The position numbers were made by a program, and so were the translations under genes. The notes below the pieces were generated by a model that was not told where the DNA came from, searched no databases, and worked only from the letters and a program-made list of their open reading frames with translations. From contig JACCLO010000007.1 of assembly GCA_029448655.1 (NCBI GenBank), positions 2,232,001 through 2,296,000 on the forward strand: a stretch of 64,000 nt of DNA, given 5' to 3'. Of the stretch, positions 171 through 52,958 are shown piece by piece; within the stretch, counting starts at the first letter, position 1, and the number at the start of each line of letters is the position of its first letter. The stretch comes from Wolfiporia cocos (lineage: Eukaryota > Basidiomycota > Agaricomycetes > Polyporales > Phaeolaceae).

Positions 171-1103
171 TGTCACAGATTTATCTGGGGCTTACAGCAT
201 TTTTCCCTACGATTATAGCAATTTATCCGGGATTTATACGTCTAACTACAAGTTATCTACGGGTTAACTCCCATTGCCACCACGACAAGCTCTTTACTGG
301 ACTTATCAACCACATGACCAGCTTACATAACGCTACGGTACCTTCCGGTCCAATAGCAACACTACAGCTACGTCATAGGTCTCGCCCGTTAGAGCAAGAC
401 CAGCCACATCATAAGATCTTAGATCATAATGATAGGCCGAGCGCGGCACGCTCGCATAATAAATGTCCACAACACCAAACATCGCCACCAAGCAATGTTC
501 TATTGGGTCGGCCTCCTCGGCTTCCCACCGTCATAAGATCCTTGATCATAATGACACCTCAGGCGCGGCACGCCTTCGCATAATTATGTCAACACGACCA
601 TACAGCACTATATTAGCAACAAGGCAATATCGTTGTTGGTCCGGCCTTATCGGCCATCAATACCCGGGCTGTGCCCGCGTTTATCACAGATAATAATAAA
701 CCTCCTCTCTTACTATTGGTGCGGCAATTACCGGCCCACACGGCCATTGTAGATAGGATCATAAACACATAGATAAGATAAGCTTCGCCCATTGGCAAAG
801 CCGCATAACCCGGAAAGGTAATACTATACAGTATCACATGACCTCTCCGCATACATGTATTTAAGTAGGAGCCAAGCGCTCCATACTTCAGTTCTATTCT
901 ATCGTCGTTACCACGAATGCCCACACGCGGAGTACCATCGGTACTCCCAGTGGACTACCATTGGTAGTCCCAAGCTTCGCCTGGTTTGCGGCTGCGCTAC
1001 TACTTCCACTTGCAACTGCTGCACTGGATCCGTCTTCCTCGTCTAGTCGCCCTAGTACCTCAGGATAGCGACTAGGTGAGTCCCACAGGATAGATCTGTG
1101 TCA
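171..1103 (+). repeat. Copy A 5' LTR (933 bp allele)
   Basis: Starts TGTCACAGATTTATCTGG and ends GATCTGTGTCA. A TATA-like TATTTAAG near 857 precedes the likely start of transcription at AGTTCTATTCT (890). It carries the same diagnostic variants as the LTR at 19834-20766 (an extra GTA triplet, and CATCGGTACTCC), and not those of the 3' LTR of A. Many short GC hairpins are visible, for example GAGCG..CGCTC near 440. Confidence 0.9.
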
Positions 1104-1104
1104 T

Positions 1105-1116
1105 AAGAATAGAACT
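1105..1116 (+). promoter_or_regulatory. Copy A self-priming primer binding site
   Basis: One T after the LTR end, AAGAATAGAACT is complementary over 11 nt to AGTTCTATTCT inside the LTR at 890-900, about 30 bp after the TATA-like box. This is the arrangement of Tf1/sushi-type elements, where the 5' end of the RNA folds back to prime reverse transcription. No tRNA-type TGG start is present. Confidence 0.75.
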
Positions 1117-4100
1117 TCCTACCCCCCTGCGCCTCCTTAACTGGTTGCGCCTGGGGTTTTTCCTCCTGCAGGTGTCTGAGATGCGCGTCCGCTCAGCCTC
1201 TGCATTCCTGGCAAGGGATGTATGCTAAATGGTATGGGATCTAGGGGGATACTCGGCGGGGGTTTGATTCCCCTGCCACCCAGTGGGGCTGCGCCTGCCT
1301 AATCAGCGGTGCGGCTCTGCGAACCTGGACTCCAGGGTTAAGGAGAGGCGGCCCATCCTGACAAGGATTGTGGCTGCCTGCGGTTGAGACCCGCCTATTG
1401 GGAAAAGGGGACGGTCTGCCTGTGTGCGCCCAACCCCCTGACATGGCAATCCCTGTTCAGGGACCCATCTCTACCAGTAGGGTCGCCATTATGGCGGCAA
1501 GGGAATCTTCCAAGCCGTTCCCTAGGCGTAAGGGGGCCCGCTTTGCCGTCCCTTGTGGACTAAAGCGGTGGGGTGGTGCGACTCGCAAGGTCGTGCCGGC
1601 CTAGGTCACTGAGCGGTAGCCAATAGCGTCAGTCCTCCGGGCGGCTTGGCGTGCTCACCTCGGGAAACTGGATCTGAGGGTCCCTCTGGAAGCCTGCGGC
1701 GTAGCCCACCATCCTAGATGCGTGGAGCGCTCGTTAAAGCGCGATCTTTGATCGACAGAGGAGTTGCCCTTGATGGACACAAGAGGGGCCTAACATGGCA
1801 AGCCTCGCCGTTGAGGCGTGGAAAGGATCGCGGTGCAATACTGCAATCCACTTTCCGGCTCGCCCTTGAGAAAGGCGGGTCGTGTATCTCTCTCCTGTAC
1901 CATTCCTCCAACCCTACCCCAGGAGCGAGCGCCTCTGCTTCAAGATGCATGCGAATATCTCCGCCTTTTGGCACTGGGTTATGCGCATCCACGAAGGCAC
2001 CTGCAGGGCTACTTCCGCGCGGCAACGTTCAAAAGTTGCCCCTAACCATGCCCCCGTTCTTCTTGTGTTAGACATGACCACTCAGCGTTGATCGCTGATG
2101 ACTCGCTCTTTTTTAGGTTCCTTGGTATCCCAATCAAATCAGTAGTTAAGATGTAGTCTAGGCGGCTCCTTAGATAGCAATACTTGTATTAGCTTTAGTA
2201 ACCGCTTGTTTGCAATGTATATAACCTTTGGACTCCTACGTCACCGTCTGGTTCCCAGGTTATCTAACCTGGTTAGGGTCGCTATGCACATAGATAAGCA
2301 ACCCTTTACGTCTTAGGTACAATAAGTCAATCGAAAAACAATACTAGTACCTTTCTTCGACGTAGGAACATGTACGTTAGGTATAATATACGCATTCACT
2401 ACCATTACTGTGGGAATACCTATTACCAAGTCGATTAAGATTCACATAATCTATCGGCGCCCGTTTGACCTCACGGTCTTCGCTCCTGAAAAGGGGATTC
2501 GGGTTATTGAGCATTAGTCATTTGGTCACATGTCATAAGAACCTTTGAACGGGGGCACCCCTTTCGGTAATGGAATCTCCTGACAAGGAAATTACCATCC
2601 GTTTGGGAAGAGACGTTTGACAAGCGTCTATAAATAATTGGGTACAGCGCTGTTTCCACCAGCCACCCACGTACAAACAGATCGCAATAGATTACTCAAT
2701 TGAATCTTGCAATCTGGGTTAGAGGAAAGGAAAACAAGGGACAAATGCTATTGATACGCATTCCCTTGAAGTGTAGCGGAGGTCGTCAAGACTTCCAGAC
2801 ATCACACTTCATTCGGCATTCACCGCATTCATTGCCGAATCATCACACCGGTCCCAAACCGGTTACCCCCCCCGAATTGAAATCGACAAATTCGCACGCC
2901 AACCGCAAATATTGTCACGAGACTAGCTATCTCACTTACGATTTCACTCCAATACGACCTCTTCTCTGTGGGGAGAAAAAACTGTATTTGGAAATTCACA
3001 CTAGCAATAAAATGCGATCGTCCGCAAAAGGTCTCGAAGAAGTACTAGAACCCTTCCAGAGATAACAAGGGAACCCCCCTTATTAGGACAATCAAGCCGA
3101 TTTGGCAATCGGTTATCATTTCATTGCTTGGTTTACGGAAACCTGCGCCGTCGAGACGCGCAATAAATAAATCCGGATCTGTATCCTTACGACAAGAAAG
3201 GATTACATCTCGTCACTACATCGAATATGGGCCTGGAAAACCCTTCGATTCCGACAAACTAGGGCTTGGAAACCTTAGTATAAAAATCTGGTCGCATATG
3301 CGAGCGACTACTGGATACAGCCTTATATGGATATACGACAAGAATACCTTAGGCCCACATCCACCCACCCTTATCTGGGTATAGAGGCGGTTTAACCTCT
3401 TTAAAAACCAAAACCATCTGGATAGGTTCGATCGGGAGATCAAACGTGAAAGAGGGGGTGGAAACCCTAATTTCGCACCTAGGACCTTAAAAAGTCCACT
3501 ATCCCACGCTTACAACAGTACCTTACGGTCTTGAAAGCACCAAACGACATGCACTAAGAGGCCTGATTACCCTCATTCATGCTCGTACTGCCCTATTCGT
3601 ATACGGACGACAACCCTGTAATAGGAATTATAGTAGCTAGCCCATCCACTAGTGAAATATATCCTTCCCCAACGTTCATCCCAGTTCCCACGCTTACAAT
3701 GCCATACTCAATCGAACAACGACTTTAACGGCATACAAGCACATTGGAAACTACCGTCATCGCCATCACGTGACCTCAACCCTTACGGGATATACCTATA
3801 CGAGACAACTCCTGACAAGGATGTATGTTCTCACGGTTACCCAATAAAGGCCTCACTACGGCAACGACATTACAGTATTAGGGAATACAATCATAAGCAT
3901 TGACCATAATGCACGATGATTAGTACCTATACACTGGGGTTATATACGAGAAGCCTACTCGTTAATAAATAGTGCATACAACCACGACTACACAGAGTCA
4001 TACCGGAACCTTACGAATCCGAAGAGATCGCTACAAAGCAATCTAACTAGGGGACACAACCCCTGTAACAAATGGGCATTGAAATAATGTCTCACGCTTA

Positions 4101-4690
4101 GTACTTGCGATGCTAAGGAGGCGACGCCTCATAAACGTTCATAAGGCAACGTCCTTTAATAACCGTTCAACCGCATAAGTCGTACAAAGTAGGATTACCT
4201 CTGTACAAGCACAAAGCCTAAGACACCCGCCACGCGAATGAAGGAACTTGCAATCCCATTCACCGCTAGGCAATAGAAGTCGAAAAAGCACCGCTATGTC
4301 ACATTCAATGGGTACTACAGCATAAGCCATTATAACCGCAAAAGGACTCGAAAAGGAACTAGAAAACCTTCAGAGTTAACAGTGAAGCCCTCACTTATAG
4401 GTATCCGGCACAATGCTTATCCGAAAATCGTACAACGACATAATGCACCCTCTAATAAGCTTTGGCAAAAGCTATTGGAGTACAGATTACTAGTAGACTC
4501 AAAGGCACTATATGATGACCATTTCCATATCGCCTTCTACTACGAGTAACGTCATAAGCAAAAGCAACAATCCAACAAAGGTCACGAAAAGGCACTAGAA
4601 AACCTTCAGCGATAACAGGAGAGCCCCTCCTATTAGGATCCGCTAGCACAATGACAATACACTCAAGTAACAAGACTATCCATCCCCAAC

Positions 4691-4909
4691 AACGGCATTT
4701 GACCTTTCGGTCATCACGCGTTGATAATCGCTAGTAACGGCATTTAGCACTTCGCTATCACGCGTTACAAATCACAATAAGGAATAAAATCGCTATCCCA
4801 TTCAACGCTCAGGTTCCAACACTAAGTCCTGAAACCTCATCTTATCCCTGTACACTTGACAAAGTGTAGCAGCACCTTAACGGCATTAGACATTTCGTCT
4901 TCACGCGTT
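4691..4909 (+). repeat. Triple ACGGCAT hairpin array, copy A
   Basis: Three ~32-nt units at 4691-4722, 4736-4766 and 4879-4909 share the outer parts AACGGCATT and TCACGCGTT (AACG pairs with CGTT) around different inner stems: TGACC/GGTCA, TAGC/GCTA and AGAC/GTCT. In copies B and E the third inner stem is TGAC/GTCA, a compensatory change. The same array is at 10906-11125 (B), 20835-21053 (C, reversed) and 51519-51728 (E). Confidence 0.8.
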
Positions 4910-4977
4910 ATACAGCTCTTGGGATGCATAAGAATGAATCGTTTCACCAGGGACGGTGAAACCTAAAGCGGGGGTAA

Positions 4978-5906
4978 TGTCACAGATTTATCTGGGGCTT
5001 ACAGCATTTTTCCCTACGATTATAGCAATTTATCCGGGATTTATACGTCTAACTACAAGTTATCTACGGGTTAACTCCCATTGCCACCACGACAAGCTCT
5101 TTACTGGACTTATCAACCACATGACCAGCTTACATAACGCTACGGTACCTTCCGGTCCAATAGCAACACTACAGCTACGTCATAGGTCTCGCCCGTTAGA
5201 GCAAGACCAGCCACATCATAAGATCTTAGATCATAATGATAGGCCGAGCGCGGCACGCTCGCATAATAATGTCCACAACACCAAACATCGCCACCAAGCA
5301 ATGTTCTATTGGGTCGGCCTCCTCGGCTTCCCACCGTCATAAGATCCTTGATCATAATGACACCTCAGGCGCGGCACGCCTTCGCATAATTATGTCAACA
5401 CGACCATACAGCACTATATTAGCAACAAGGCAATATCGTTGTTGGTCCGGCCTTATCGGCCATCAATACCCGGGCTGTGCCCGCGTTTATCACAGATAAT
5501 AATAAACCTCCTCTCTTACTATTGGTGCGGCAATTACCGGCCCACACGGCCATTGTAGATAGGATCATAAACACATAGATAAGATAAGCTTCGCCCATTG
5601 GCAAAGCCGCATAACCCGGAAAGGTAATACTATACAGTATCACATGACCTCTCCGCATACATGTATTTAAGTAGGAGCCAAGCGCTCCATACTTCAGTTC
5701 TATTCTATCGTCGTTACCACGAATGCCCACCCGCGGAGTACCATAGGTACTCCCAGTGGACTACCATTGGTAGTCCCAAGCTTCGTCTGGTTTGCGGCTG
5801 CGCTACTTCCACTAGCAACTGCTGCACTGGGTCCATCTTCCTCGTCTAGTCGCCCTAGTACCTCAGGATAGCGACTAGGTGAGTCCCACAGGATAGATCT
5901 GTGTCA
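4978..5906 (+). repeat. Copy A 3' LTR (929 bp allele)
   Basis: Shares its diagnostic variants (CATAGGTACTCC, the shorter GCGCTACTTCC, CACCCGCGG) with the LTR at 24642-25570 and not with the 5' LTR of the same element. Followed directly by CTTAT (5907-5911), the reverse complement of ATAAG at 25571-25575. Confidence 0.9.
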
Positions 5907-6173: not shown

Positions 6174-7262
6174 TGTCACAGATTTATCTGGGACTTACAG
6201 CATTTTTCCTATGATTATAGCAATTTACCTGGGATTTATACGTCTACCTACCAGTTATCTACGGGTTAACTCCCATTGCCACCACGACAAGCTCTTAACT
6301 GGGCTTATCAACCACATGACTAGCTTACGTAATGCTACGGTACAACCACGTCCAATAGCAACACTACAGCATACGTCATAAGTCTTGCCCGTCAGAGCAA
6401 GACCAGCCACGTCATAGATCTTAGATCATAATGATAGGCCGAGCGCGGCACGCTCGCATAATAATGTCCACATGTACAAACAGTGCCTCGCGGCCTTGTA
6501 CTATTGGGTCGGCCTTCATGGCTTCCCACCGCCATAAGATCCTTGACCACAATGGCACCTCAGGCGCGCCACGCCTTCGCATAATAATGGCAACACGACC
6601 ATACAGCATTATAATAGCATCAAGGCTATATCGCTATAGGTCACGGCCTTCTCGGCCTCCCACGGACTCGGTGTTCTCCAAGTCCCGGGCTTCTGCCATC
6701 ACGGCGTTGCCCAAACACCGGACCTCGCCTCACGGCTAAGTCCAACACATGCCCCGGTAACCATCCGGACCGGGCTGTAACACATGCCACGGAACTTCCC
6801 GTCCAATGGCATAACGACCTCGGCGTCTCGCCTTGGTCATCCAACGAAGCACGGCCAATCGCCATTATACCTCACGGTATCCGGCAACCGGCTTCCCATA
6901 TACCCGGGCTGCGCCCGCGTTCATATGATAACATACACAAATCCCTCTCATACGATTGGTTCGGCCATTAGGGCCTTGCCACGGCCATTCTATGTAGAGT
7001 CCATAAACAGTAGATAAGATAAGCTTCGCCACTTGGCAAAGCCACATAACCCGGAAAGGTAACAGCTAGTTAGTAGCACGTGACCTTCCCATAAACATGT
7101 ATATAACTAGGGGCTTGACGCCCTATAACTCTAGTTCTATTATTCTCGGCTTGCGCCGTAGAATAACCTCTCACATCCTGCTGCGCTGGTATTGCCTCCT
7201 CTCTAAGTCGCCTTATCTCAACAATATAGGCACTTGGTGAGTCCCACAGGCATACTGTGTCA
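6174..7262 (+). repeat. Copy B 5' LTR
   Basis: TGTCACAG..CTGTGTCA, 1089 bp. TATA box TGTATATAACTA near 7098, predicted transcription start AGTTCTATTATT at 7133. A perfect splice-donor-like GGTGAGT lies about 25 bp before the end and recurs in the LTRs of A, C, D and E. Confidence 0.9.
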
Positions 7263-10200
7263 TAATAATAGAACTTCCTACCCCCCCGCCCTTCCTTAAC
7301 TGGTTGGGCCTGGGGTTTTTCCCCCCACAGGTGTCTGAGATTGCGCCCCTCTCTGCCTCTGCAGCCCTGACAAGGGTTGTATGCTTAATGGTTGGGTTCT
7401 GGGGGATACTAGCGGCGGGGGTTTGATCCCCCTGCCACCCAGTGGGGCTGCGCCTGCCTAATCAGTGGTGCGGTCCTGCAAACCCGGACTCCAGGGTTAA
7501 GGAGAGGCGCCCCATCCTGACAAGGATTGTGGGTGCCAGCGGTTGAGACCCGCCTGTTGGGAAAAGGGGACGGTCTGCCTGTGCGCGCCCAACCCCCTGT
7601 CATGGCAATCCCTGTTTAGGGACCCATCACTACCAATAGGATCCCCATAGGGATATGCGTTTCGGCGTATTCCCTTAGCAGGGTGTGGGAATCTTCCATC
7701 GCCGATCCTCAGGCGTAAGAGGCCCGCTTTGGATCCTTAATTGGATTAAAGTGGTGAGGTGGCGTGGCTCGCAAGGCTGCGCCGGCCTAGGTCATTGAGC
7801 GGTACCCAATAGCGTCAGTCCTCCGGGCGGCTCGGGGTGCTCACCACGGGAAACTGGATCTGAGGGTCCCTCTGGAAGCCTGCGGCGTAGCCCACCATCT
7901 TAGATGCGTGGAGCGCTCGTTAAAGCGCGATCTTTGATCGACAGAGGAGTTGCCCTTGATGGACACAAGTGGGGCCTAATACGGCAAGCCTTGCCATTGA
8001 GGCGTGGACAGGGTCGCGGTGTAATACTGCAACCCACTTTCCCGCTCTCCTCCTGTTTAGGGGAAGGGCGGTGTATCTTCTTCCCAACCATGTGATCCAG
8101 CCGATCAAATGCTGGCAATCACCGACCCTACCCCTGGAGCGAGCGCCTCTGTTACAAGCACAAGCGAATATCTCCGCCTCTTGGCACAGGGTCATGCGCA
8201 TCTATGAAGACACCTGGAGGTTTAATTCCGCGCAGCAACCCCCAAGAGGTTGCCCCTAACCATGCCCCTGTTCTTATTGTGTTCAATGAATATGACCACT
8301 CAGCGATAGTTCGCTGATGACTCGCTCTTCTAGGTACCCTGGTATCCCAGTCAAAAGTAGATAAATATATAGTTTTAGCGGCGGCTCCAGTAGTTTACTT
8401 ACCTTGTAAAGTAGCTTAGTAACTGCCCAATAGCATTTGTATTCAACCTTGGACATCCTGCGTCACCGTCTGGTTCCCAGGTTATCTAGCCTGGTTAAGG
8501 TCGCTTATGTACTTAAAAAGCAACCTTTCTCGTCTTAGGTACACTTAGTTAATCGAACAACGATACTAGTACCTTGCCCGACGTAGGAACGTGTACGCTA
8601 TGGTTAAATATATGCTTATAACTATCATTACTGTGGGAAATACCTATTACCAAGTCGATAAGGATTACCCATAATCCGTCGGCGCCCGTTTGACTTTGGT
8701 CTTCGCTCCTGAAAAGGGGATTCGGGTTATTGAGCATTAGTCACGGTCATTTCATTCGTTAAGAACCTTAGAACGGGGGCACCCCTTTCGGTAATGGAAT
8801 TCCTGACAAGGAAATTACCATCCGTTTGGGAAGAGACGTCTGACAAGCGTCTATAAATAATTGGAAACACTGCCGTTCTCACCGGCGTTCCATGTACAAA
8901 CAGATCGCAATAGATTACTTAATTGAATCTCGCAATCTGGGTTAGAGGAAGGGAAAACAAGGGACACACGCTATTGATACGCGTTCCCTTGAAGTGTAGC
9001 GGAGGTCATCAAGACTTCCAGAATCACACTTCATTCGGCATCTTCGCACATCGCCAAATTCACACCGGTCCCAAACCGGTCCCCCCCGAATTGAAATCGA
9101 CAAATTCGCACGCCATCCGCAAATATTGTCACGAGACTCGCTATCTCATTTACGATTTCACTCCAATACGACATCACTTCTCTGTGGGGAGAACAACTGT
9201 ATCTGGAAAATTCACACTAGCAGAAAAATGCGATCGTCCGCAAAAGGCTTCAAAAGGAAACTCGAAAATCCTCCGAAGTAACAGATGAACCCCATCTTTT
9301 AGGACAATCACTCCGATTTGGCAATCGGTTATCATTGCAATTGCTTGGTTTACGGAAACCTACGTCGTCGAGACACGTAATAAATAAATCCGGATCTGTT
9401 TCCTATCTCCCGATTAGGAATACATCTCGTCACTACACCGAACAAGAGCCTGAGAAACTCTTCGGTATCGACAAACTAGGGCATGGGAAACCTTAGTATA
9501 AAAAATCTGGTCGCATATGCGAGCGACCTGGATAAAGCCTTACATGGATATACGACAATAATACCTTAGGCCCACATCCACCCACCCTTATTTGGGTTAT
9601 AGAGGCGGTTTAACCTCTTTAAAAACCAAAACCAACGGAATAGGTTTGATCGGGAGATCAAACGTGGAAGAGGGGGTGAGAACCCTAAATCCGCATTCTG
9701 AACCTTCAAAAGTCCGCTATCCCATGCTTACAAATGTACCTCACGGTCATTAAAGCAACAAACGACATGCACTAAGAGGCCTGATTACCCTCATTCATGT
9801 TCGTACTGTCCTATTCGTATATGGACGACAACCTTGTAATAGGAATATAGTAGCTATCTATCCAATAGCAAAATATATCCTCCCCCAACGTTCATCACAG
9901 TTCCCACGCTTACAACGCCACACTTAATCGAACAACGACTTTAACAGCATACAAGCACATTGGAAACTACCGTCATCGCCACCACGTGACTTCAGCCCTT
10001 ACGGGATATACCTTTACGAGACAACTCCTGACAAGGATATATGTTCTCACGGTTACCCAATAAGGCCTCACTACGGCAACGACACTACAGTCTAGGGAAT
10101 ACAATCATAAGCATTGACCATAAGGCACAATGATTAGTACCTATACTATGGGGTTTTACACGAGAAGCCTACTCGTTAAATAAATAGTGCATACAACCAC

Positions 10201-11195
10201 GAAGGCACAGCTTCATTCCGGAACTTACGACTCCGAAGAGATCGCTACTAAGAAGCAATCTAACTAGGGGACACAACCCCTGTAACAAATGGGCATTGAC
10301 AAATGTCACACGCTTAGCACTTGCGATGCTAGGGAGGCGACGCCTCATAAACGTTCATAAGGCGACGTCCTTTAATAAACCGTTCAACCGCATAAGTCGT
10401 ACAAAGTAGGATTACCCCTGTACAAGCACCAAGCCTAAGACACCCGCCACGCGAATGAAGGAACTTGCAATCCCATTCACCGCTAGGCAATAGACGTCGA
10501 AAAAGCACCGCTATGCTACATTCAAAGGGTACTACGCATAAGCCATTATAACCGCAAAAGGGCTCGAAGAGAAACTTGAACATCTCTAGAGCTAACAGTG
10601 AAGCCCTCACTTCTAGGTATCCGGCACAATGCTTATCCGAAATACGTACAACAACACAATGCACCCTCTAATACGCTTGGCAAGCTATTGGAGACACAGA
10701 TTACTAGTAGACTCCAAAGGCACTATATGATGAACATTTCCATATCGCCTTCTACTACGAATAACGTCATAAGCAAAAGCAACAATCCGACCAAGGTCGC
10801 GAAAAGGCACTAGAAAACCTTCAGCGATAACAGGAGAGCCCCTCCTTCTAGGATCCGCGTGCATAATGACAATACACTCAAGTAACAAGACTACCCTTCC
10901 CCAACAACGGCATTTGACCTTTCGGTCATCACGCGTTGATAATCGCTAGTAACGGCATTTAGCACTTCGCTATCACGCGTTACAAATCGCAATAAGGAAT
11001 ACAATCGCTATCCCATTCAACGCTCAGGTTCCACTACAAAGTACTGAAACTCCCATTTATCCCTGTTCAATTAACAAAATTGAAGCAGCACCTTAACGGC
11101 ATTTGACACTTCGTCATCACGCGTTATACCGCTCTTGGGACGTACACAATGAGGAATAGTTTCATCAGGGACGATGAAACCTAAAGCGGGGGTAA
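7263..11195 (+). ncRNA. Copy B internal region, structured non-coding
   Basis: Homologous along its whole length to the internal regions of A, C and E. Paired changes against A include GCCC/GGGC (7288-7291 with 7306-7309) for GCGC/GCGC, TTCAATT/AATTGAA (11066-11084) for TACACTT/AAGTGTA, GTTTCATC/GATGAAAC (11159-11180) for GTTTCACC/GGTGAAAC, and AGATG/CATCT around the AACCC loop (9283-9297) for AAGGG/CCCTT. Confidence 0.7.
7264..7275 (+). promoter_or_regulatory. Copy B self-priming primer binding site
   Basis: AATAATAGAACT, one T after the LTR, is a perfect 12-nt complement of AGTTCTATTATT in the LTR (7133-7144). Compared with copy A, the PBS changes T to G where the LTR changes A to C, a paired change that keeps the duplex. 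Confidence 0.8.
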
Positions 11196-12284
11196 TGTCA
11201 CAGATTTATCTGGGACTTACAGCATTTTTCCTATGATTATAGCAATTTACCTGGGATTTATACGTCTACCTACCAGTTATCTACGGGTTAACTCCCATTG
11301 CCACCACGACAAGCTCTTAACTGGGCTTATCAACCACATGACTAGCTTACGTAATGCTACGGTACAACCACGTCCAATAGCAACACTACAGCATACGTCA
11401 TAAGTCTTGCCCGTCAGAGCAAGACCAGCCACGTCATAGATCTTAGATCATAATGATAGGCCGAGCGCGGCACGCTCGCATAATAATGTCCACATGTACA
11501 AACAGTGCCTCGCGGCCTTGTACTATTGGGTCGGCCTTCATGGCTTCCCACCGCCATAAGATCCTTGACCACAATGGCACCTCAGGCGCGCCACGCCTTC
11601 GCATAATAATGGCAACACGACCATACAGCATTATAATAGCATCAAGGCTATATCGCTATAGGTCACGGCCTTCTCGGCCTCCCACGGACTCGGTGTTCTC
11701 CAAGTCCCGGGCTTCTGCCATCACGGCGTTGCCCAAACACCGGACCTCGCCTCACGGCTAAGTCCAACACATGCCCCGGTAACCATCCGGACCGGGCTGT
11801 AACACATGCCACGGAACTTCCCGTCCAATGGCATAACGACCTCGGCGTCTCGCCTTGGTCATCCAACGAAGCACGGCCAATCGCCATTATACCTCACGGT
11901 ATCCGGCAACCGGCTTCCCATATACCCGGGCTGCGCCCGCGTTCATATGATAACATACACAAATCCCTCTCATACGATTGGTTCGGCCATTAGGGCCTTG
12001 CCACGGCCATTCTATGTAGAGTCCATAAACAGTAGATAAGATAAGCTTCGCCACTTGGCAAAGCCACATAACCCGGAAAGGTAACAGCTAGTTAGTAGCA
12101 CGTGACCTTCCCATAAACATGTATATAACTAGGGGCTTGACGCCCTATAACTCTAGTTCTATTATTCTCGGCTTGCGCCGTAGAATAACCTCTCACATCC
12201 TGCTGCGCTGGTATTGCCTCCTCTCTAAGTCGCCTTATCTCAACAATATAGGCACTTGGTGAGTCCCACAGGCATACTGTGTCA
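11196..12284 (+). repeat. Copy B 3' LTR
   Basis: No difference seen from 6174-7262 at offset 5022. Followed by the CGGGA duplication at 12285-12289. Confidence 0.9.
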
Positions 12285-12289
12285 CGGGA

Positions 12290-12867
12290 CATGTGTTGGT
12301 CTTAGCCGTGAGGCGAGGACCGGTGTTTGGGCAGCGCCGTGATGGCAGAAGCCCGGGACTTGGAGACCGCCGAGTCCGTGGGAGGCCGAGGAGGCCGTAG
12401 CCTATAGCGATATTGCCTTGGTGCTAATATAGTGCTATTTGGCCGTGTTGCCATTATTATGCGAAGGCGTGGCACGCCTGAGGTGCCATTGTGATCAAGG
12501 ATCTTATGGCGGTGGGAAGCCGGGAAGGCCGACCCAATAGTACAAGGCCGCGAGGCACTGTTTGTACATGTGGACATTATTATGCGAGCGTGCCGCGCTC
12601 GGCCTATCATTATGATCTACGATCTATGACGTGGCTGGTCTTGCTCTGACGGGCGAGACCTGTATGACGAAGCTGTAACTATGCTATTGGACCGGAAGGT
12701 GCCGTAGCGTTATGTAAGCTGGTCATGTGGTGATAAGCCCAGTTAAGAGCTTGTTGTGGTGGCAATGGGAGTTAACCCGTAGATAACTTGTAGGTAGACG
12801 TATAAATCCCAGGTAAATTGCTATAATCATAGGAAAAATGCTGTAAGCCCCAGATAAATCTGTGACA
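12290..12867 (-). repeat. Solo LTR D, 5' piece
   Basis: On the minus strand this starts TGTCACAGATTTATCTGG at 12867 and runs to the B insertion site. It is flanked by ATTTT (12868-12872), the complement of the AAAAT that ends LTR D at 25827-25831, on the other side of the inversion. Confidence 0.85.
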
Positions 12868-19833: not shown

Positions 19834-20766
19834 TGACACAGATCTATCCTGTGGGACTCACCTAGTCGCTATCCTGAGGTACTAGGGCGACTAGACGAGG
19901 AAGACGGATCCAGTGCAGCAGTTGCAAGTGGAAGTAGTAGCGCAGCCGCAAACCAGGCGAAGCTTGGGACTACCAATGGTAGTCCACTGGGAGTACCGAT
20001 GGTACTCCGCGTGTGGGCATTCGTGGTAACGACGATAGAATAGAACTGAAGTATGGAGCGCTTGGCTCCTACTTAAATACATGTATGCGGAGAGGTCATG
20101 TGATACTGTATAGTATTACCTTTCCGGGTTATGCGGCTTTGCCAATGGGCGAAGCTTATCTTATCTATGTGTTTATGATCCTATCTACAATGGCCGTGTG
20201 GGCCGGTAATTGCCGCACCAATAGTAAGAGAGGAGGTTTATTATTATCTGTGATAAACGCGGGCACAGCCCGGGTATTGATGGCCGATAAGGCCGGACCA
20301 ACAACGATATTGCCTTGTTGCTAATATAGTGCTGTATGGTCGTGTTGACATAATTATGCGAAGGCGTGCCGCGCCTGAGGTGTCATTATGATCAAGGATC
20401 TTATGACGGTGGGAAGCCGAGGAGGCCGACCCAATAGAACATTGCTTGGTGGCGATGTTTGGTGTTGTGGACATTTATTATGCGAGCGTGCCGCGCTCGG
20501 CCTATCATTATGATCTAAGATCTTATGATGTGGCTGGTCTTGCTCTAACGGGCGAGACCTATGACGTAGCTGTAGTGTTGCTATTGGACCGGAAGGTACC
20601 GTAGCGTTATGTAAGCTGGTCATGTGGTTGATAAGTCCAGTAAAGAGCTTGTCGTGGTGGCAATGGGAGTTAACCCGTAGATAACTTGTAGTTAGACGTA
20701 TAAATCCCGGATAAATTGCTATAATCGTAGGGAAAAATGCTGTAAGCCCCAGATAAATCTGTGACA
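19834..20766 (-). repeat. Copy C 3' LTR (933 bp allele)
   Basis: Same variants as the 5' LTR of A (171-1103); its flank CCTGG is the complement of CCAGG at 166-170. These two were the LTR pair of one element before the inversion. Confidence 0.88.
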
Positions 20767-23700
20767 TTACCCCCGCTTTAGGTTTCACCGTCCCTGGTGA
20801 AACGATTCATTCTTGTGCATCCCAAGAGCTGTATAACGCGTGAAGACGAAATGTCTAATGCCGTTAAGGTGCTGCTACACTTTGTCAAGTGTACAGGGAT
20901 AAGATGAGGTTTCAGGACTTAGTGTTGGAACCTGAGCGTTGAATGGGATAGTGATTTTATTCCTTATTGTGATTTGTAACGCGTGATAGCGAAGTGCTAA
21001 ATGCCGTTACTAGCGATTATCAACGCATGATGACCGAAAGGTCAAATGCCGTTGTTGGGGAGGGATAGTCTTGTTACTTGAGTGTATTGTCATTGTGCTA
21101 GCGGATCCTAATAGGAGGGGCTCTCCTGTTATCGCTGAAGGTTTTCTAGTGCCTTTTCGTGACCTTTGTTGGATTGTTGCTTTTGCTTATGACGTTACTC
21201 TTAGTAGAAGGCGATATGGAAATGGTCATCATATAGTGCCTTTGAGTCTACTAGTAATCTGTATCTCTAATAGCTTTTGCCAAAGCTTATTAGAGGGTGC
21301 ATTGTGTCGTTGTACGATTTTCGGATAAGCATTGTGCCGGATACCTATAAGTGAGGGCTTCACTGTTAACTCTGAAGGTTTTCTAGTTCCTTTTCGAGTC
21401 CTTTTGCGGTTATAATGGCTTATGCTGTAGTACCCGTTGAATGTAGCATAGCGGTGCTTTTTCGACTTCTATTGCCTAGCAGTGAAAGGGGTTGCAAGTT
21501 CCTTCATTTGCGTGGCGGGTGTCTTAGGCTTGTTGCTTGTACAGGGGTAATCCTACTTTGTACGACTTATGCAGTTGAACGGTTATTAAAGGTCGTCGCC
21601 TTATGAACGTTTATGAGGCGTCGCCTCCCTAGTATCGCAAGTACTAAGCGTGAGACATTTGTCAATGCCCATTTGTTACAGGGGTTGTGTCCCCTAGTTA
21701 GATTGCTTCTAAGTAGCGATCTCTTCGGAGTCGTAAGTTCCGGAATGAAGCTGTGCCTTCGTTGTTGTATACACTATTTTATTAACGAGTAGGCTTCTCG
21801 TGTATAACCCCATAGTACAGGTACTAATCATTGTGCATTATGGTTAATGCTTATGATTGTATTCCCTAGACTGTAATGTCGTTGCCGTAGTGAGGCCTTA
21901 TTGGGTAACCGTGAGAACATACATCCTTGTCAGGAGTTGTCTCGTATAGGTGTATCCCGTAAGGGCTGAAGTCACGTGGTGGCAATGACGGTAGTTTCCA
22001 ATGTGCTTGTATGCCGTTAAAGTCGTTGTTCGATTGAGTATGGCATTGTAAGCGTGGGAACTGGGATGAACGTTGGGGAAGGATATATTTCACTAGTGGA
22101 TGGGCTAGCTACTATAATTTCTATTACAGGGTTGTCGTCCGTATACGAATAGGGCAGTACGAGCATGAATGAGGGTAATCAGGCCTCTTAGTGCATGTCG
22201 TTTGGTGCTTTCAAGACCGCAAGGTACTGTTGTAAGCGTGGGATAGTGGACTTTTTAAGGTCCTAGGTGCGAAATTAGGGTTTCCACCCCCTCTTTCACG
22301 TTTGATCTCCCGATCGAACCTATCCAGATGGTTTTGGTTTTTAAAGAGGTTAAACCGCCTCTATACCCAGATAAGGGTGGGTGGATGTGGGCCTAAGGTA
22401 TTCTTGTCGTATATCCATATAAGGCTGTATCCAGTAGTCGCTCGCATATGCGACCAGATTTTTATACTAAGATTTCCAAGCCCTAGTTTGTCGGAATCGA
22501 AGGGTTTTCCAGGCCCATATTCGATGTAGTGACGAGATGTAATCCTTTCTTGTCGTAAGGATACAGATCCGGATTTATTTATTGCGCGTCTCGACGGCGC
22601 AGGTTTCCGTAAACCAAGCAATGAAATGATAACCGATTGCCAAATCGGCTTGATTGTCCTAATAAGGGGGGTTCCCTTGTTATCTCTGGAAGGGTTCTAG
22701 TACTTCTTCGAGACCTTTTGCGGACGATCGCATTTTATTGCTAGTGTGAATTTCCAAATACAGTTTTTTCTCCCCACAGAGAAGAGGTCGTATTGGAGTG
22801 AAATCGTAAGTGAGATAGCTAGTCTCGTGACAATATTTGCGGTTGGCGTGCGAATTTGTCGATTTCAATTCGGGGGGGGTAACCGGTTTGGGACCGGTGT
22901 GATGATTCGGCAATGAATGCGGTGAATGCCGAATGAAGTGTGATGTCTGGAAGTCTTGACGACCTCCGCTACACTTCAAGGGAATGCGTATCAATAGCAT
23001 TTGTCCCTTGTTTTCCTTTCCTCTAACCCAGATTGCAAGATTCAATTGAGTAATCTATTGCGATCTGTTTGTACGTGGGTGGCTGGTGGAAACAGCGCTG
23101 TACCCAATTATTTATAGACGCTTGTCAAACGTCTCTTCCCAAACGGATGGTAATTTCCTTGTCAGGAGATTCCATTACCGAAAGGGGTGCCCCCGTTCAA
23201 AGGTTCTTATGACATGTGACCAAATGACTAATGCTCAATAACCCGAATCCCCTTTTCAGGAGCGAAGACCGTGAGGTCAAACGGGCGCCGATAGATTATG
23301 TGAATCTTAATCGACTTGGTAATAGGTATTCCCACAGTAATGGTAGTGAATGCGTATATTATACCTAACGTACATGTTCCTACGTCGAAGAAAGGTACTA
23401 GTATTGTTTTTCGATTGACTTATTGTACCTAAGACGTAAAGGGTTGCTTATCTATGTGCATAGCGACCCTAACCAGGTTAGATAACCTGGGAACCAGACG
23501 GTGACGTAGGAGTCCAAAGGTTATATACATTGCAAACAAGCGGTTACTAAAGCTAATACAAGTATTGCTATCTAAGGAGCCGCCTAGACTACATCTTAAC
23601 TACTGATTTGATTGGGATACCAAGGAACCTAAAAAAGAGCGAGTCATCAGCGATCAACGCTGAGTGGTCATGTCTAACACAAGAAGAACGGGGGCATGGT

Positions 23701-24641
23701 TAGGGGCAACTTTTGAACGTTGCCGCGCGGAAGTAGCCCTGCAGGTGCCTTCGTGGATGCGCATAACCCAGTGCCAAAAGGCGGAGATATTCGCATGCAT
23801 CTTGAAGCAGAGGCGCTCGCTCCTGGGGTAGGGTTGGAGGAATGGTACAGGAGAGAGATACACGACCCGCCTTTCTCAAGGGCGAGCCGGAAAGTGGATT
23901 GCAGTATTGCACCGCAATCCTTTCCACGCCTCAACGGCGAGGCTTGCCATGTTAGGCCCCTCTTGTGTCCATCAAGGGCAACTCCTCTGTCGATCAAAGA
24001 TCGCGCTTTAACGAGCGCTCCACGCATCTAGGATGGTGGGCTACGCCGCAGGCTTCCAGAGGGACCCTCAGATCCAGTTTCCCGAGGTGAGCACGCCAAG
24101 CCGCCCGGAGGACTGACGCTATTGGCTACCGCTCAGTGACCTAGGCCGGCACGACCTTGCGAGTCGCACCACCCCACCGCTTTAGTCCACAAGGGACGGC
24201 AAAGCGGGCCCCCTTACGCCTAGGGAACGGCTTGGAAGATTCCCTTGCCGCCATAATGGCGACCCTACTGGTAGAGATGGGTCCCTGAACAGGGATTGCC
24301 ATGTCAGGGGGTTGGGCGCACACAGGCAGACCGTCCCCTTTTCCCAATAGGCGGGTCTCAACCGCAGGCAGCCACAATCCTTGTCAGGATGGGCCGCCTC
24401 TCCTTAACCCTGGAGTCCAGGTTCGCAGAGCCGCACCGCTGATTAGGCAGGCGCAGCCCCACTGGGTGGCAGGGGAATCAAACCCCCGCCGAGTATCCCC
24501 CTAGATCCCATACCATTTAGCATACATCCCTTGCCAGGAATGCAGAGGCTGAGCGGACGCGCATCTCAGACACCTGCAGGAGGAAAAACCCCAGGCGCAA
24601 CCAGTTAAGGAGGCGCAGGGGGGTAGGAAGTTCTATTCTTA
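20767..24641 (-). ncRNA. Copy C internal region, structured non-coding
   Basis: Reverse-complement homologue of 1104-4977. The ACGGCAT hairpin array is at 20835-21053, with one unit carrying AACGCATG in place of AACGCGTG. No gene. Confidence 0.65.
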
Positions 24642-25570
24642 TGACACAGATCTATCCTGTGGGACTCACCTAGTCGCTATCCTGAGGTACTAGGGCGACT
24701 AGACGAGGAAGACGGACCCAGTGCAGCAGTTGCTAGTGGAAGTAGCGCAGCCGCAAACCAGACGAAGCTTGGGACTACCAATGGTAGTCCACTGGGAGTA
24801 CCTATGGTACTCCGCGGGTGGGCATTCGTGGTAACGACGATAGAATAGAACTGAAGTATGGAGCGCTTGGCTCCTACTTAAATACATGTATGCGGAGAGG
24901 TCATGTGATACTGTATAGTATTACCTTTCCGGGTTATGCGGCTTTGCCAATGGGCGAAGCTTATCTTATCTATGTGTTTATGATCCTATCTACAATGGCC
25001 GTGTGGGCCGGTAATTGCCGCACCAATAGTAAGAGAGGAGGTTTATTATTATCTGTGATAAACGCGGGCACAGCCCGGGTATTGATGGCCGATAAGGCCG
25101 GACCAACAACGATATTGCCTTGTTGCTAATATAGTGCTGTATGGTCGTGTTGACATAATTATGCGAAGGCGTGCCGCGCCTGAGGTGTCATTATGATCAA
25201 GGATCTTATGACGGTGGGAAGCCGAGGAGGCCGACCCAATAGAACATTGCTTGGTGGCGATGTTTGGTGTTGTGGACATTATTATGCGAGCGTGCCGCGC
25301 TCGGCCTATCATTATGATCCAAGATCTTATGATGTGGCTGGTCTTGCTCTAACGGGCGAGACCTATGACGTAGCTGTAGTGTTGCTATTGGACCGGAAGG
25401 TACCGTAGCGTTATGTAAGCTGGTCATGTGGTTGATAAGTCCAGTAAAGAGCTTGTCGTGGTGGCAATGGGAGTTAACCCGTAGATAACTTGTAGTTAGA
25501 CGTATAAATCCCGGATAAATTGCTATAATCGTAGGGAAAAATGCTGTAAGCCCCAGATAAATCTGTGACA
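24642..25570 (-). repeat. Copy C 5' LTR (929 bp allele)
   Basis: Matches the 3' LTR of A (4978-5906) except for a few single-base differences (for example near 24715 and 25320). Followed by ATAAG at 25571-25575. Confidence 0.88.
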
Positions 25571-45743: not shown

Positions 45744-46109
45744 TGTCACAAGCCGATTTTCTCCAACTTGCTTGCGACTAGGAACAACCCTTATCTAAGC
45801 GCCCGCCTATGCGTCACGTGCAAGGACCCCGAACACCCCACACGTGCCTACACAGACCCCGGACACCCTTGATGTGGCTCTACACCTACGATAGGGTTTA
45901 CCATACTCTAAACGGTCTATCAGCTTACGTAATACTGTATAGTAGCCAAACATGTACAAACAGCCTACGAGCATATATACCAGCCAGACGAGCAGGGAGC
46001 ACCCCAGACTCGTCTTGGCCTTTGTTGCCTTGAGTAGCCTCAGACTAGGAATACGCTTTCACGCGAGTAATATTCCCCTGAGTAGTTGCTTGAGAATACG
46101 CTTGTGTCA
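45744..46109 (+). repeat. Element F 5' LTR
   Basis: TGTCACAAGCCG..TTGTGTCA. ATATATA box at 45973-45979 and predicted start of transcription at AGACTCGTCTT (46006), giving U3 of about 262 bp and R-U5 of about 104 bp. Confidence 0.9.
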
Positions 46110-46815
46110 TAAGACGAGTCTCCACCCCGTTCTGAGTTCATTCCAGAACAACCCCGGCGCACTAGGGGCAAAGTGCACTGTTTCATCGCCCTCGAATTGA
46201 CTTCGGTCGATTCGGGTGTATAAACTTTTACCCTCCCGTATCCCAGGGACAAGGGACTGGGTTCTGGGGGTATACACTTGTGAACAGCGTGTAGGGGACC
46301 TCTCCTACCGTTGCTTCTAAGCTACTGGGCCACCGTCGTGCAACGCGGCGTAAAGGCTTTGGGTTTCATCCCCACCGTAGTAGTTGTGCACCCGACGCGA
46401 AATAATCAAAGGCGTTAAGGGGCCCTACGGCAGATTACAGAGGCACTGGGCACCTATATACGCGCATTACCGCGCCGACTATACGGGCATTACCGCCCCC
46501 CGATTACTATACAACCCAGCGCCCTACAAGGCGGCTGAAGGAGCGCGACACAGCTCACACTATACGGCCACTTGGCCCAAATACGATAGTTTTTAGACCC
46601 TCCATCACAAGGGTTTAGATCCCGTGCCCCCGGTATCCCGAATTAGCTTCGGGGCTGGACGAGGTTTCGGAGGCAGGAATTTCTAGCCGGCTTTGGGAAG
46701 AAAACCCCTTAGCGTTTCTTGGCACATCTCCGAAAAGAGGTGGTTCCTGAATAGAGTGGACATCGACTGTTCATAGTTACCACCCCGATCGCAGCTATAG
46801 GCTGATCCACAGTGG
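46110..46815 (+). other. Element F leader, split by copy E
   Basis: The leader continues at 52896-52958 after copy E and one AGTGG duplication. It has no long ORF. Hairpin-like and GC-rich tracts (for example CACCCGACGCG near 46388) may serve packaging, which is only a guess. Confidence 0.5.
46111..46121 (+). promoter_or_regulatory. Element F self-priming primer binding site
   Basis: AAGACGAGTCT lies one T after the LTR and is the perfect complement of AGACTCGTCTT at 46006-46016, about 30 bp after the TATA box. This fits Tf1/sushi-like self-priming; no tRNA-type TGG start is present. Confidence 0.8.
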
Positions 46816-47907
46816 TGTCACAGATTTATCTGGGACTTATAGCATTTTTCCTACGATTATAGCAATTTACCTGGGATTTATACGTCTACCTACAAGTTAT
46901 CTACGGGTTAACTCCCATTGCCACCACGACAAGCTCTTAACTGGGCTCGTCAAACACATGACCAGCTTACATAACGCTACGGCACCTTCCGGTCCAATAG
47001 CATAGTTACAGCTACGTCATACAGGTCTCGCCCGTCAGAGCAAGACCAGCCACGTCATAGATCCTAGATCATAATGATAGGCCGAGCGCGGCACGCTCGC
47101 ATAATAATGTCCACATGTACAAACAGTGCCTCGCGGCCTTGTACTATTGGGTCGGCCTTCCCGGCTTCCCACCGCCATAAGATCCTTGATCACAATGGCA
47201 TCTCAGGCGCGCCACGCCTTCGCATAATAATGGCAACACGGCCAAATAGCACTATATTAGCACCAAGGCAATATCGCTATAGGTTCGGCCTTCTCGGCCA
47301 TCCCACGGACTCGGCGTTCTCCAAGTCCCGGGCTTCTGCCATCACGGCGTTGCCCAAACACCGGTCCTCGCCTCACGGCTAAGACCAATACATGCCCCGG
47401 TAACCATCCGGTCCGGGCTGTAACACATGCCACGGTACTTCCCGTCCAATGGCATAACGACCTCGGCGCCTCGCCTTGGTCATCACACGAAGACCGGCCA
47501 ATCGCCATTATACCTCACGGTATCCGGCAACCGGCTTCCCATATACCCGGGCTGCGCCCGCGTTCATATGATAATATACACAAATCCCTCTCCTACGATT
47601 GGTGCGGCCATTAGGGCCCATCACGGCCATTGTAGATAGAGTCCATAAACATCAGATAAGACAGCGCTTCGCCTCTTGGCAAAAGCCACATAACCCGGAA
47701 TGGTAGTACTAGCTAGTAGCACGCGCCATCCGCATAAACATGTATATAAGTAGGGGCTTGACGCCCTTTAACCTTAGTTCTATTATTCTCTCGGCTTGCG
47801 CCGTAGAATAATCTCTCACATCCTGCTGCGCTGGTACTGCCTCCTCTCTAAGCCGCCTTATCTCAACAATATAGGCACTTGGTGAGTCCCACAGGCGTAC
47901 TGTGTCA
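46816..47907 (+). repeat. Copy E 5' LTR
   Basis: 1092 bp. Followed by T and the PBS AATAATAGAACT (47909-47920), complementary to AGTTCTATTATT in the LTR. Confidence 0.9.
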
Positions 47908-50900: not shown

Positions 50901-51798
50901 ACAAATGGGCATTGACAAATGTCACACGCTTAGTACTTGCGATACTAGGGAGGCGACGCCTCATAAACGTTCATAAGGCGACGCCCTTTAATAACCGTTC
51001 AAACCGCATAAGTCGTACAAAGTAGGATTACCCCTGTACAAGCAACAAGCCTAAGACACCCGCCACGCGAATGAAGGAACTTGCAATCCCATTCACCGCT
51101 AGGCAATAGACGTCGAAAAAGCACCGCTATGTTACACTCAATGGGTACTACGCATAAGCAACATATCCGCCAAAGGGCTCGAAGAGACACTAGAAAATCT
51201 CCAGAGCTAACAGTGAAGCCCTCACTCTAAGGAATATCGCACAATGCTATCCGAAACACGTACAACGACACAATGCACCCTCTAATATGCTTGGCAAGCT
51301 ATTGGAGTACAGATTACTAGTAGACTTCAAAGGCACTATAGGAGGAACATTTCCATATCGCCTTCTACTACGAGTAACGTCATAAGCAAAAGCAACAATC
51401 CGACAAAGGTCGCGAAAAGGCACTTGAACACCTTCAGCGATAACAGGAAAGCCCTTCCTCTTAGGATCCGCGTGCACAATGACAATACACTCTAGTAACA
51501 CGACTACACCTCCCTAACAACGGCATTTGACCTCTCGGTCATCACGCGTTGATAATCGCTAGTAACGGCATTTAGCACTCTGCTATCACGCGTTACAAAT
51601 CAATAAGGAATAAATCGCCTTCCACGCTCAGGCTCCATCCACAAGTCCTGAAACTCCCATTTATCCCTGTTCAATTGACAAATTGAAGCAGCTCCATAAC
51701 GGCATTTGACACATCGTCATCACGCGTTATACCGCTCTTGGGACGTACACAATAAGGAATAGTTTCATCAGGGACGATGAAACCTAAAGCGGGGGTAA
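47908..51798 (+). ncRNA. Copy E internal region, structured non-coding
   Basis: Hairpin set as in copy B: GCCC/GGGC next to the PBS, TAACA-hairpin-TTAGG boxes near 49897, 51208 and 51441, ACGGCAT array at 51519-51728, GTTTCATC/GATGAAAC at 51762-51783, then the polypurine tract. Confidence 0.7.
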
Positions 51799-52890
51799 TG
51801 TCACAGATTTATCTGGGACTTATAGCATTTTTCCTACGATTATAGCAATTTACCTGGGATTTATACGTCTACCTACAAGTTATCTACGGGTTAACTCCCA
51901 TTGCCACCACGACAAGCTCTTAACTGGGCTCGTCAAACACATGACCAGCTTACATAACGCTACGGCACCTTCCGGTCCAATAGCATAGTTACAGCTACGT
52001 CATACAGGTCTCGCCCGTCAGAGCAAGACCAGCCACGTCATAGATCCTAGATCATAATGATAGGCCGAGCGCGGCACGCTCGCATAATAATGTCCACATG
52101 TACAAACAGTGCCTCGCGGCCTTGTACTATTGGGTCGGCCTTCCCGGCTTCCCACCGCCATAAGATCCTTGATCACAATGGCATCTCAGGCGCGCCACGC
52201 CTTCGCATAATAATGGCAACACGGCCAAATAGCACTATATTAGCACCAAGGCAATATCGCTATAGGTTCGGCCTTCTCGGCCATCCCACGGACTCGGCGT
52301 TCTCCAAGTCCCGGGCTTCTGCCATCACGGCGTTGCCCAAACACCGGTCCTCGCCTCACGGCTAAGACCAATACATGCCCCGGTAACCATCCGGTCCGGG
52401 CTGTAACACATGCCACGGTACTTCCCGTCCAATGGCATAACGACCTCGGCGCCTCGCCTTGGTCATCACACGAAGACCGGCCAATCGCCATTATACCTCA
52501 CGGTATCCGGCAACCGGCTTCCCATATACCCGGGCTGCGCCCGCGTTCATATGATAATATACACAAATCCCTCTCCTACGATTGGTGCGGCCATTAGGGC
52601 CCATCACGGCCATTGTAGATAGAGTCCATAAACATCAGATAAGACAGCGCTTCGCCTCTTGGCAAAAGCCACATAACCCGGAATGGTAGTACTAGCTAGT
52701 AGCACGCGCCATCCGCATAAACATGTATATAAGTAGGGGCTTGACGCCCTTTAACCTTAGTTCTATTATTCTCTCGGCTTGCGCCGTAGAATAATCTCTC
52801 ACATCCTGCTGCGCTGGTACTGCCTCCTCTCTAAGCCGCCTTATCTCAACAATATAGGCACTTGGTGAGTCCCACAGGCGTACTGTGTCA
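51799..52890 (+). repeat. Copy E 3' LTR, placed as a promoter for F gag-pol
   Basis: TATATAAG box near 52729 and start motif AGTTCTATTATT at 52759-52770 lie about 200 bp before the F start codon. No ATG occurs between that start motif and 52959, so a transcript from this LTR would have the gag ATG as its first AUG. A GGTGAGT donor-like site is near 52865. Promoter use is inferred. Confidence 0.75.
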
Positions 52891-52958
52891 AGTGGGCGGG
52901 TAGCGCAGTCACACGTCGCGACTCTACTTTTTACACATACATTTTCAATACAACTACA

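Follow-up and report, generated by a model that had tools for sequence, protein, structure and literature searches.

The stretch analyzed here (64,000 nucleotides [nt] of the Wolfiporia cocos genome; positions 2,232,001-2,296,000 of contig 67 [JACCLO010000007.1]; genome, 64.4 Mb in 76 contigs), referred to below as the window, holds four full copies (A, B, C, and E) of one long terminal repeat (LTR) element. An earlier note on this DNA had proposed that their shared ~3.9-kb internal region keeps RNA hairpins but no reading frames. Here, we report a comparison of copies from throughout the genome, by which the family is probably a protein-free, non-autonomous LTR retrotransposon, resembling the large retrotransposon derivatives (LARDs) and living as a satellite of Tf1-type self-priming Ty3/gypsy elements.

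Results

The family has the anatomy of an LTR retrotransposon, with direct LTRs (TG...CA), target site duplications (TSDs), a primer-binding site (PBS), and a polypurine tract (PPT); positions are given in Table 1. Across 21 copies, LTRs were ~0.8-1.2 kb long (termini, TGTCACAG...CTGTGTCA) and internal regions 3.85-3.93 kb. The internal region starts with TAAGAATAGAACTTCC or TAATAATAGAACTTCC and ends with CCTAAAGCGGGGGTAA, followed by TGTCACAG (one base off in L013); the PPT reads GCGGGGGTAA in most copies. The insertions are young: a perfect 5-bp TSD was found in 17 of the 19 copies having both flanks (21 examined), and within each of these 17 the two LTRs are identical or one base apart (L012 has an additional 12-nt gap). 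The two copies without a matching TSD are A and C, whose flanks (CCAGG, CTTAT) are swapped between them; the A 5' LTR is 100% identical to the C 3' LTR, and the A 3' LTR is 99.8% identical to the C 5' LTR. Given the swapped flanks and matching LTR versions, recombination between A and C most likely inverted the ~14 kb separating them. Genome-wide, 1 kb of internal region had at least 40 matches (76-100% identity), and a 17-base pattern across the LTR/internal border occurred at 195 sites, fragments and nested copies included (up to 1 mismatch; reversed control, 0). The comparison confirmed A, B, C, and E as full copies, with the coordinates previously assigned to them and an internal region of ~3.9 kb in which frames are not kept.

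The longest open reading frames (ORFs) starting with ATG encode 84-203 amino acids (aa) (21 copies scanned). In 32 full or nearly full copies, the stop-free stretches tested, which are among the longest, measure 282 (L035), 213 (L009), and 204 (L023) codons, and the frame of each is kept in 1 of the 32. Since the L035 stretch was longer than every one of 200 shuffles of that copy (maximum, 257 codons), it was examined for constraint, and none was found: nonsynonymous/synonymous (N/S) counts were 182/85, 131/49, and 111/35 in the L035, L009, and L023 stretches, respectively, versus unconstrained expectations of 195/72, 128/52, and 105/41. L031 has 228 stop-free codons overlapping the L035 stretch. 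No Pfam family scored above the cut-off in the three longest stop-free stretches, and in the B and L031 clades stops or changes in length disrupt the 117-codon ORF of A. A hidden protein was rejected on these grounds (frame, N/S, and Pfam), and by the same tests the family encodes no reverse transcriptase (RT) or integrase of Ty3/gypsy, which the nearby coding element alone does. An intact long ORF in other copies would have spoken against a noncoding family; no long ORF is common to the copies. The codon phase of between-clade differences is almost even in most of 12 segments and uneven at 3204-3503 (30/10/32) and 3804-4103 (24/14/6), the latter being the pattern nearest to coding and lying mostly outside the N/S-tested stretches. 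Segment 3804-4103 is also among the best conserved, and no ORF was found that accounts for its uneven phase.

The 11-12 nt directly 3' of the 5' LTR are complementary to an LTR stretch 32-33 nt past a TATA-like box. Primer and PBS are compensated, in that the PBS change between subfamilies (A versus B and E) is mirrored by a matching LTR change. An exact 11-12-nt LTR complement is present in 32 of 39 junction rows with the exact border pattern (the L021 row repeats E); rows without a testable LTR are L029, L030, and L036, where the LTR lies outside the fetched piece, and L041, where other DNA takes its place. On both strands of the window, a complement of at least 10 nt accompanies 6 of 157 TGTCA sites (reversed window, 0 of 111), namely those of A, B, C, E, the coding element (at 46110), and a site at 63163; the complement at 63163 is 39 nt away with no TATA-like box, and the other five lie 32-33 nt past one. 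All 7 leaders tested, that of the coding element included, have the primer/PBS duplex in their minimum-energy fold; the duplex bridges the LTR border over ~120-220 nt. Judging from the TATA spacing, the family RNA would start at AGTTCTATT, in which case the PBS would pair with its 5' end. The arrangement points to self-priming of the Tf1 kind: the PBSs of Tf1 and Tj1 are complementary to the 5' end of their own RNA (PMC4600332, excerpt). A tRNA-derived PBS or tRNA-like domain was rejected, as ARAGORN found no tRNA in the window and self-priming explains the PBS; no tRNA 3' end was recognized as fitting TAAGAATAGAAC (by judgement; no search was made).

For covariation, internal regions from the same genome were aligned as 44 rows (32 full or nearly so, 12 pieces), and 42 rows were used after L037 (~570 bases of element) and L043a (a short piece; L043 gave two) were dropped. 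L017, L029, and some others were counted as full without one end; L021 is E, and L001-L008 repeat other loci. Over the 42 rows, all five paired exchanges that the earlier note had read from the copies in the window proved real. The stem adjoining the PBS is GCGC/GCGC in 20 rows and GCCC/GGGC in 19 (one side changed, 2; missing, 1). That at 4850-4870 is TTCAATT/AATTGAA in 20 and TACACTT/AAGTGTA in 6, with further versions CATAC/GTATG (3) and CACAATT/AATTGTG (1; damaged, 1; missing, 11). The stem adjoining the PPT is GTTTCATC/GATGAAAC in 19 rows and GTTTCACC/GGTGAAAC in 9 (half-changed, 2; missing, 12), the stem at 4888-4900 is TGAC/GTCA in 24 and AGAC/GTCT in 6 (missing, 12), and that at 4617-4631 is AGGAG/CTCCT in 22 and AGGAA/TTCCT in 10 (missing, 10). 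The 4888-4900 stem belongs to the third of a set of AACGGCAT-stem-CACGCGTT hairpins, of which up to three per element stand near the 3' end (0-3 exact hits in each of 32 copies).

Pairs were predicted from the fold of one copy alone, with no information from the others, and compared with 120 column shuffles within 80-column blocks, which retain relatedness and local composition. Two-sided changes that keep pairing were present in 110 of 572 pairs (19%) of the A fold, versus a mean of 27.1 of 358 pairs (7.6%; standard deviation, 6.2; maximum, 45) in shuffles. The B fold gave 83 of 478 pairs (shuffle mean, 25.5 of 367; maximum, 37) and the L031 fold 106 of 555 (26.8 of 363; maximum, 45). Broken cells were rarer than shuffled (1,317 of 20,363 versus 1,756 of 12,663). 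Two-sided Watson-Crick exchanges falling on a single tree branch were counted in the 407 well-kept pairs of A: inner branches had 58 and terminal branches 71, versus 0-2 and 0-5, respectively, with partners slid 2 or 3 columns. Clade-fixed exchanges of this kind in the helices of A numbered 11 (A/B), 5 (A/L031), and 10 (B/L031), versus 0.2, 1.0, and 1.0 with slid partners. Covariation in this larger alignment of genomic copies thus exceeded both the shuffled and the slid controls, which supports the earlier claim of selection on the folding of a noncoding RNA.

Because a plus-strand A.C is a minus-strand G.U, both strands were tested. In every one of the 13 reference copies, the plus fold yields the larger number of covarying pairs (by a narrow margin in L017, L042, and L048) and the minus fold has the greater stability. 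Of the pairs that 6 or more of 12 references predict, 44 of 259 plus-only, 8 of 173 minus-only, and 20 of 250 both-strand pairs covary. Covariation fits the sense strand better, and antisense-strand structure, which an excess of A.C interruptions (see Discussion) had suggested, is not favored, given the results in the 13 references and in the single-strand pair counts.

A 72-nt module occurs three times in each of A, B, C, and E. Common to all are the letters AAGG, AA, ACTnGAA (one departure), TAACA, a C-rich loop, and AGG, and the three stems between these fixed letters vary in sequence. In an alignment of 44 distinct module sequences (three positions, 18 chosen copies; L042 and the short L030 M1 absent), pairing was kept in 608 of 616 cells (98.7%), 11 of 14 pairs had two-sided changes, and one pair was G.U in 44 of 44 sequences. 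The covariation score was 0.671, versus 0.055-0.135 with slid partners and 0.251 in letter shuffles, and RNAalifold alone recovered the same 14 pairs. A covariance model of the module matched the window 12 times, three times per copy and each time on the sense strand of that copy, with no other match in the window at E of ≤1, the coding Ty3/gypsy element included; across the 37 loci searched it gave 93 matches, one of them partial. The core pattern had 526 genomic occurrences, versus 1 in the reversed control. Outside the training set, the module of an old relative (L075) keeps every pair; its third stem, AGCCG/CGGCU, is unlike any in the training set, where precedents exist for the other stems. 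The L051 module has two broken pairs, and that of L050 has H1 and H2 whole and H3 shortened. No Rfam family reached its gathering score (window positions 1-26000; L032, L051, and L075). The three matches at E of ≤1 (psbT-asRNA, mir-4510, and PreQ1) all fell below gathering scores and were rejected, and no ribozyme was found at E of ≤1 in the same sequences. With fixed unpaired letters and free stems, the module looks like a protein or RNA contact site; as a first guess, it may be recognized during packaging or copying.

Eleven of 462 alignment segments of 250 columns were closer by at least 2 points to another clade. These mosaic segments were located in the internal regions of L011, L012, L013, L014, L028, and L031 and fit template switching between co-copied RNAs as well as gene conversion.

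Discussion

We propose that the family probably persists as a LARD-like satellite (LARD denoting here a structural class, not a lineage). Its RNA would start in the LTR just past the TATA box, the first 11-12 nt would fold back onto the post-LTR sequence and prime minus-strand synthesis, the RNA would presumably be cut behind the primer, and the G-rich PPT would prime the plus strand. Gag, RT, and integrase, borrowed from coding Ty3/gypsy elements, would then copy and insert the element with its 5-bp TSD. The local hairpins and the three modules may act in cis as signals for entry into, or copying in, the particles of another element; as the RNA makes no protein, its fold would be what is kept. 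The earlier guess at packaging or reverse transcription signals has a definite basis at the primer site, in the self-primer pairing, and elsewhere stays presumptive. More tentatively, and with some doubt on our part, the module might be a new motif that recruits or is recognized by foreign Ty3/gypsy machinery, the 3.9-kb region being an RNA genome with fold and self-primer as its sole heritable phenotype.

Several results weigh against this proposal. Pairing is lost in one copy or more at 221 of the 572 pairs of the A fold, no fewer than in shuffles (202), and 14 of 81 helices (at least 4 bp) are broken in >10% of cells. A tree-based test (G-test with a null of 20 replicates, approximating R-scape) passes 14 of 572 pairs at E of <0.05, and when column pairs of every kind are ranked together, complementarity in at least 90% of copies holds for 9 of the top 14; of these 14, where 0.55 are expected from the null, 3 are in the A fold, and the noncomplementary ones are linked columns. 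Linked blocks weaken this test; at scores of at least 38, 15 of 32 pairs were complementary, versus 63 of 1,127 random pairs of variable columns. Two of five module measures do not exceed letter shuffles: pairs with two-sided change (11 versus 9.3; 69 of 500 shuffles reach it) and pair types (20 versus 24.8; 500 of 500 reach it). As to strand, no more than 9 of 13 references have a smaller broken fraction on the plus fold. G.U and A.C changes occur in similar numbers in well-kept covarying helices (51 versus 47 types) and in both-strand pairs (6 versus 7 types in at least 3 copies, 42 versus 48 in 1-2 copies), and a strand-neutral stem scan of A gave 24 A.C versus 10 G.U interruptions (shuffled, 7 and 8). 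Composition and post-insertion decay may lie behind the missing G.U preference and the A.C excess; parsimony counts were left out of this comparison because ties were broken by letter order. At the primer, L043 and L048 have one mismatch each in the duplex, and one L016 junction keeps 7 nt. In the pieces read of 32 further PBS loci (195 sites in total), no coding sequence was recognized that would mark a partner sharing the primer site. Of 20 of these loci, 17 match the noncoding family over nearly their whole length; the others are a family LTR inserted just past the PBS (L072), an older noncoding relative (L062), and a piece too short to judge (L074).

The changes could instead have arisen at the DNA level, by quasi-palindrome correction or template switching that copies one hairpin arm onto the other without any function. 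Whole stems do differ among copies (four versions at 4850-4870), the copies look like mosaics, and G.U is not favored over A.C, whose interruptions are commoner in the strand-neutral scan. We nevertheless consider this origin improbable, since covariation is found in plus-only helices (44 of 259) and less in minus-only ones (8 of 173), correction would have turned the invariably G.U pair of the module (44 of 44) into a Watson-Crick pair, the module has invariant unpaired junction letters, and the primer/PBS pairing reaches over the LTR border across ~120-220 nt.

Equally hard to credit for the region as a whole is an ordinary LARD, a deletion derivative that moves by its LTR ends only and whose hairpins are a by-product of composition. 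The shuffled and slid controls speak against it, as does a module present three times with covarying stems. Single hairpins without variation may be explained in this way, 28 of 81 helices having no two-sided change and proving nothing, and the proteins supplied in trans that are assumed for LARDs and terminal-repeat retrotransposons in miniature (TRIMs; PMC7215508, excerpt) need no structured interior.

Domestication of the internal region as a long noncoding or chromosome-structural RNA, with selection acting for the host, is very improbable: a tandem LTR-internal-LTR arrangement in L049, implied on other small contigs, and several places within ~120 kb of contig ends would suit it, but the A and B clades are largely dispersed, with 5-bp TSDs and identical or near-identical LTRs (LTR pairs of the L031 clade stand outside this comparison), and the differences between these two clades are compensated ones, the pattern that selection on replication of the element itself would leave.

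LARDs have LTRs of 4.4 kb and a tRNA primer, and Kalendar et al. reportedly described Sukkula of barley as one in 2004. Our proposed satellite family resembles them in having LTRs, a PBS, and a PPT around a gene-free, kilobase-scale interior, with conserved RNA structure besides, and differs in its fungal host, LTRs of ~0.8-1.2 kb, and self-primer. "Well-conserved RNA secondary structures" have been claimed for LARDs and TRIMs (PMC7215508, excerpt); in this family, the evidence for structure is compensatory change tested against controls, together with the recurrence of the module. With Tf1 and Tj1 the family shares a PBS that matches the 5' end of the RNA (here a presumed one) as its complement and a fungal host (PMC4600332, excerpt), and it differs in having no gag-pol at all. 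Retrozymes are likewise noncoding, structured, LTR-flanked, and thought to be mobilized by Ty3/gypsy elements; they differ in their hammerhead ribozymes within the LTRs, RNAs of ~0.7 kb, tRNA-Met PBS, and 4-bp TSDs (PMC4918200, excerpt), and the ribozyme search above (E of ≤1; window positions 1-26000, L032, L051, and L075) found no LTR hammerhead here. TRIMs such as Cassandra are noncoding LTR elements that also occur in tandem LTR-internal arrays; according to the same excerpt of PMC7215508, they have short LTRs and almost no interior, versus LTRs of 0.8-1.2 kb and an interior of 3.9 kb in this family.

Among titles and the beginnings of abstracts, with subscription literature mostly outside the search, no description was found of a non-autonomous self-priming LTR element or of this module. 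Because structure had already been claimed for plant LARDs and TRIMs (PMC7215508, excerpt), the statement in the earlier note that no description exists holds, within the literature searched, for the family and its motifs and not for LARD/TRIM structure at large. Noncoding LTR elements, conserved LARD/TRIM structure, and Tf1 self-priming are each known separately; their joint occurrence, together with the module, is apparently new as far as we searched. A gene-free retroelement that has young insertions and continues to diverge amounts to a natural experiment on the needs that RNA must meet by itself, and these can be read as compensated pairs (self-primer, hairpins at both ends, and a module kept three times). 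With 195 primer-site matches, this one genome offers a large data set on retroelement RNA structure and recombination.

Other features of the locus and the genome

Table 1. Features of the window, with positions, strand, and particulars
Feature	Position	Strand	Particulars
A, 5' LTR	171..1103	+	933 bp; ends TGTCACAG...CTGTGTCA
A, TATA-like box	858..865	+	TATTTAAG; 32 nt upstream of presumed RNA start
A, self-primer	890..900	+	AGTTCTATTCT; presumed RNA 5' end
A, internal region	1104..4977	+	Structured, noncoding
A, PBS	1106..1116	+	AGAATAGAACT; complement of 890-900
A, hairpin adjoining PBS	1129..1150	+	Covarying
A, module M1	3022..3093	+	
A, module M2	4335..4408	+	
A, module M3	4572..4643	+	
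A, first AACGGCAT...CACGCGTT hairpin	4691..4722	+	Stem TGACC/GGTCA
A, second AACGGCAT...CACGCGTT hairpin	4736..4766	+	Stem TAGC/GCTA
A, hairpin with variable stem	4850..4870	+	Four stem versions among copies
A, third AACGGCAT...CACGCGTT hairpin	4879..4909	+	AGAC/GTCT here; TGAC/GTCA in most copies
A, hairpin adjoining PPT	4941..4962	+	Covarying
A, PPT	4962..4977	+	CCTAAAGCGGGGGTAA
A, 3' LTR	4978..5906	+	929 bp
B, full copy	6174..12284	+	Internal region 7263-11195; LTRs identical (1089/1089); 5-bp TSD CGGGA
B, self-primer	7133..7144	+	AGTTCTATTATT; complement of post-LTR AATAATAGAACT
B, module M1	9238..9309	+	Covariance model
B, module M2	10552..10623	+	Covariance model
B, module M3	10787..10858	+	Covariance model
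LTR fragment	12285..12867	-	Same family as A, B, C, and E
C, full copy	19834..25570	-	Internal region 20767-24641
C, three modules	22652-22723, 21338-21409, 21101-21172	-	Covariance model
Coding Ty3/gypsy element	45744..60021	+	LTRs 45744-46109 and 59656-60021; GTTTG on both flanks
E, full copy	46816..52890	+	Internal region 47908-51798; LTRs identical (1092/1092); 5-bp TSD AGTGG
E, self-primer	47776..47787	+	AGTTCTATTATT; complement of post-LTR AATAATAGAACT
E, module M1	49855..49926	+	Covariance model
E, module M2	51167..51238	+	Covariance model
E, module M3	51400..51471	+	Covariance model

E is inserted in the leader of the coding Ty3/gypsy element, so that the noncoding element is nested in a member of the candidate helper class. 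The coding element has a self-primer of its own (46006-46016, AGACTCGTCTT, against 46111-46121), unlike that of the family in sequence; both have termini TGTCACA/TGTGTCA and a G-rich PPT adjoining the LTR. Domains found were protease, RT, RNase H, integrase zinc-binding, Tf2-type SH3, and dUTPase, with the integrase core below the cut-off and no chromodomain match. The element is of the right class for a helper and is a candidate only. Its RT matched proteins of Lyophyllum shimeji, Ganoderma boninense, and Phlebia brevispora at 61-64% identity (best 120 of 3,538 matches), and a 496-aa ORF had a Wolfiporia cocos protein as first match (62% over 59%). In the coding ORF (52869-59693), the dUTPase domain (E, 6e-36) stands ahead of protease and RT, and a Phlebia brevispora protein with dUTPase was among the matches listed for the element.

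In L049 (contig 39), a tandem LTR-internal-LTR-internal arrangement was read directly (period, ~4.86-5.05 kb), and hit spacing implies the same arrangement on contigs 10, 21, 22, 31, 36, and 53 and at C1:4742111-4752033. Small contigs had many family hits with equal score. Several copies are found near contig ends, at distances of up to ~120 kb (e.g., C3:35-68 kb, C1:5261124, C2:3158503, C23:5180610, and C75:40556), and most of these belong to the L046/L048-like subfamily.

L075 (C4:336500-342900) and L038/L042 are much older relatives, their pieces mostly having 66-81% identity. As older relatives keep the same kind of self-primer and a recognizable module, the family appears to be long-lived in this lineage.

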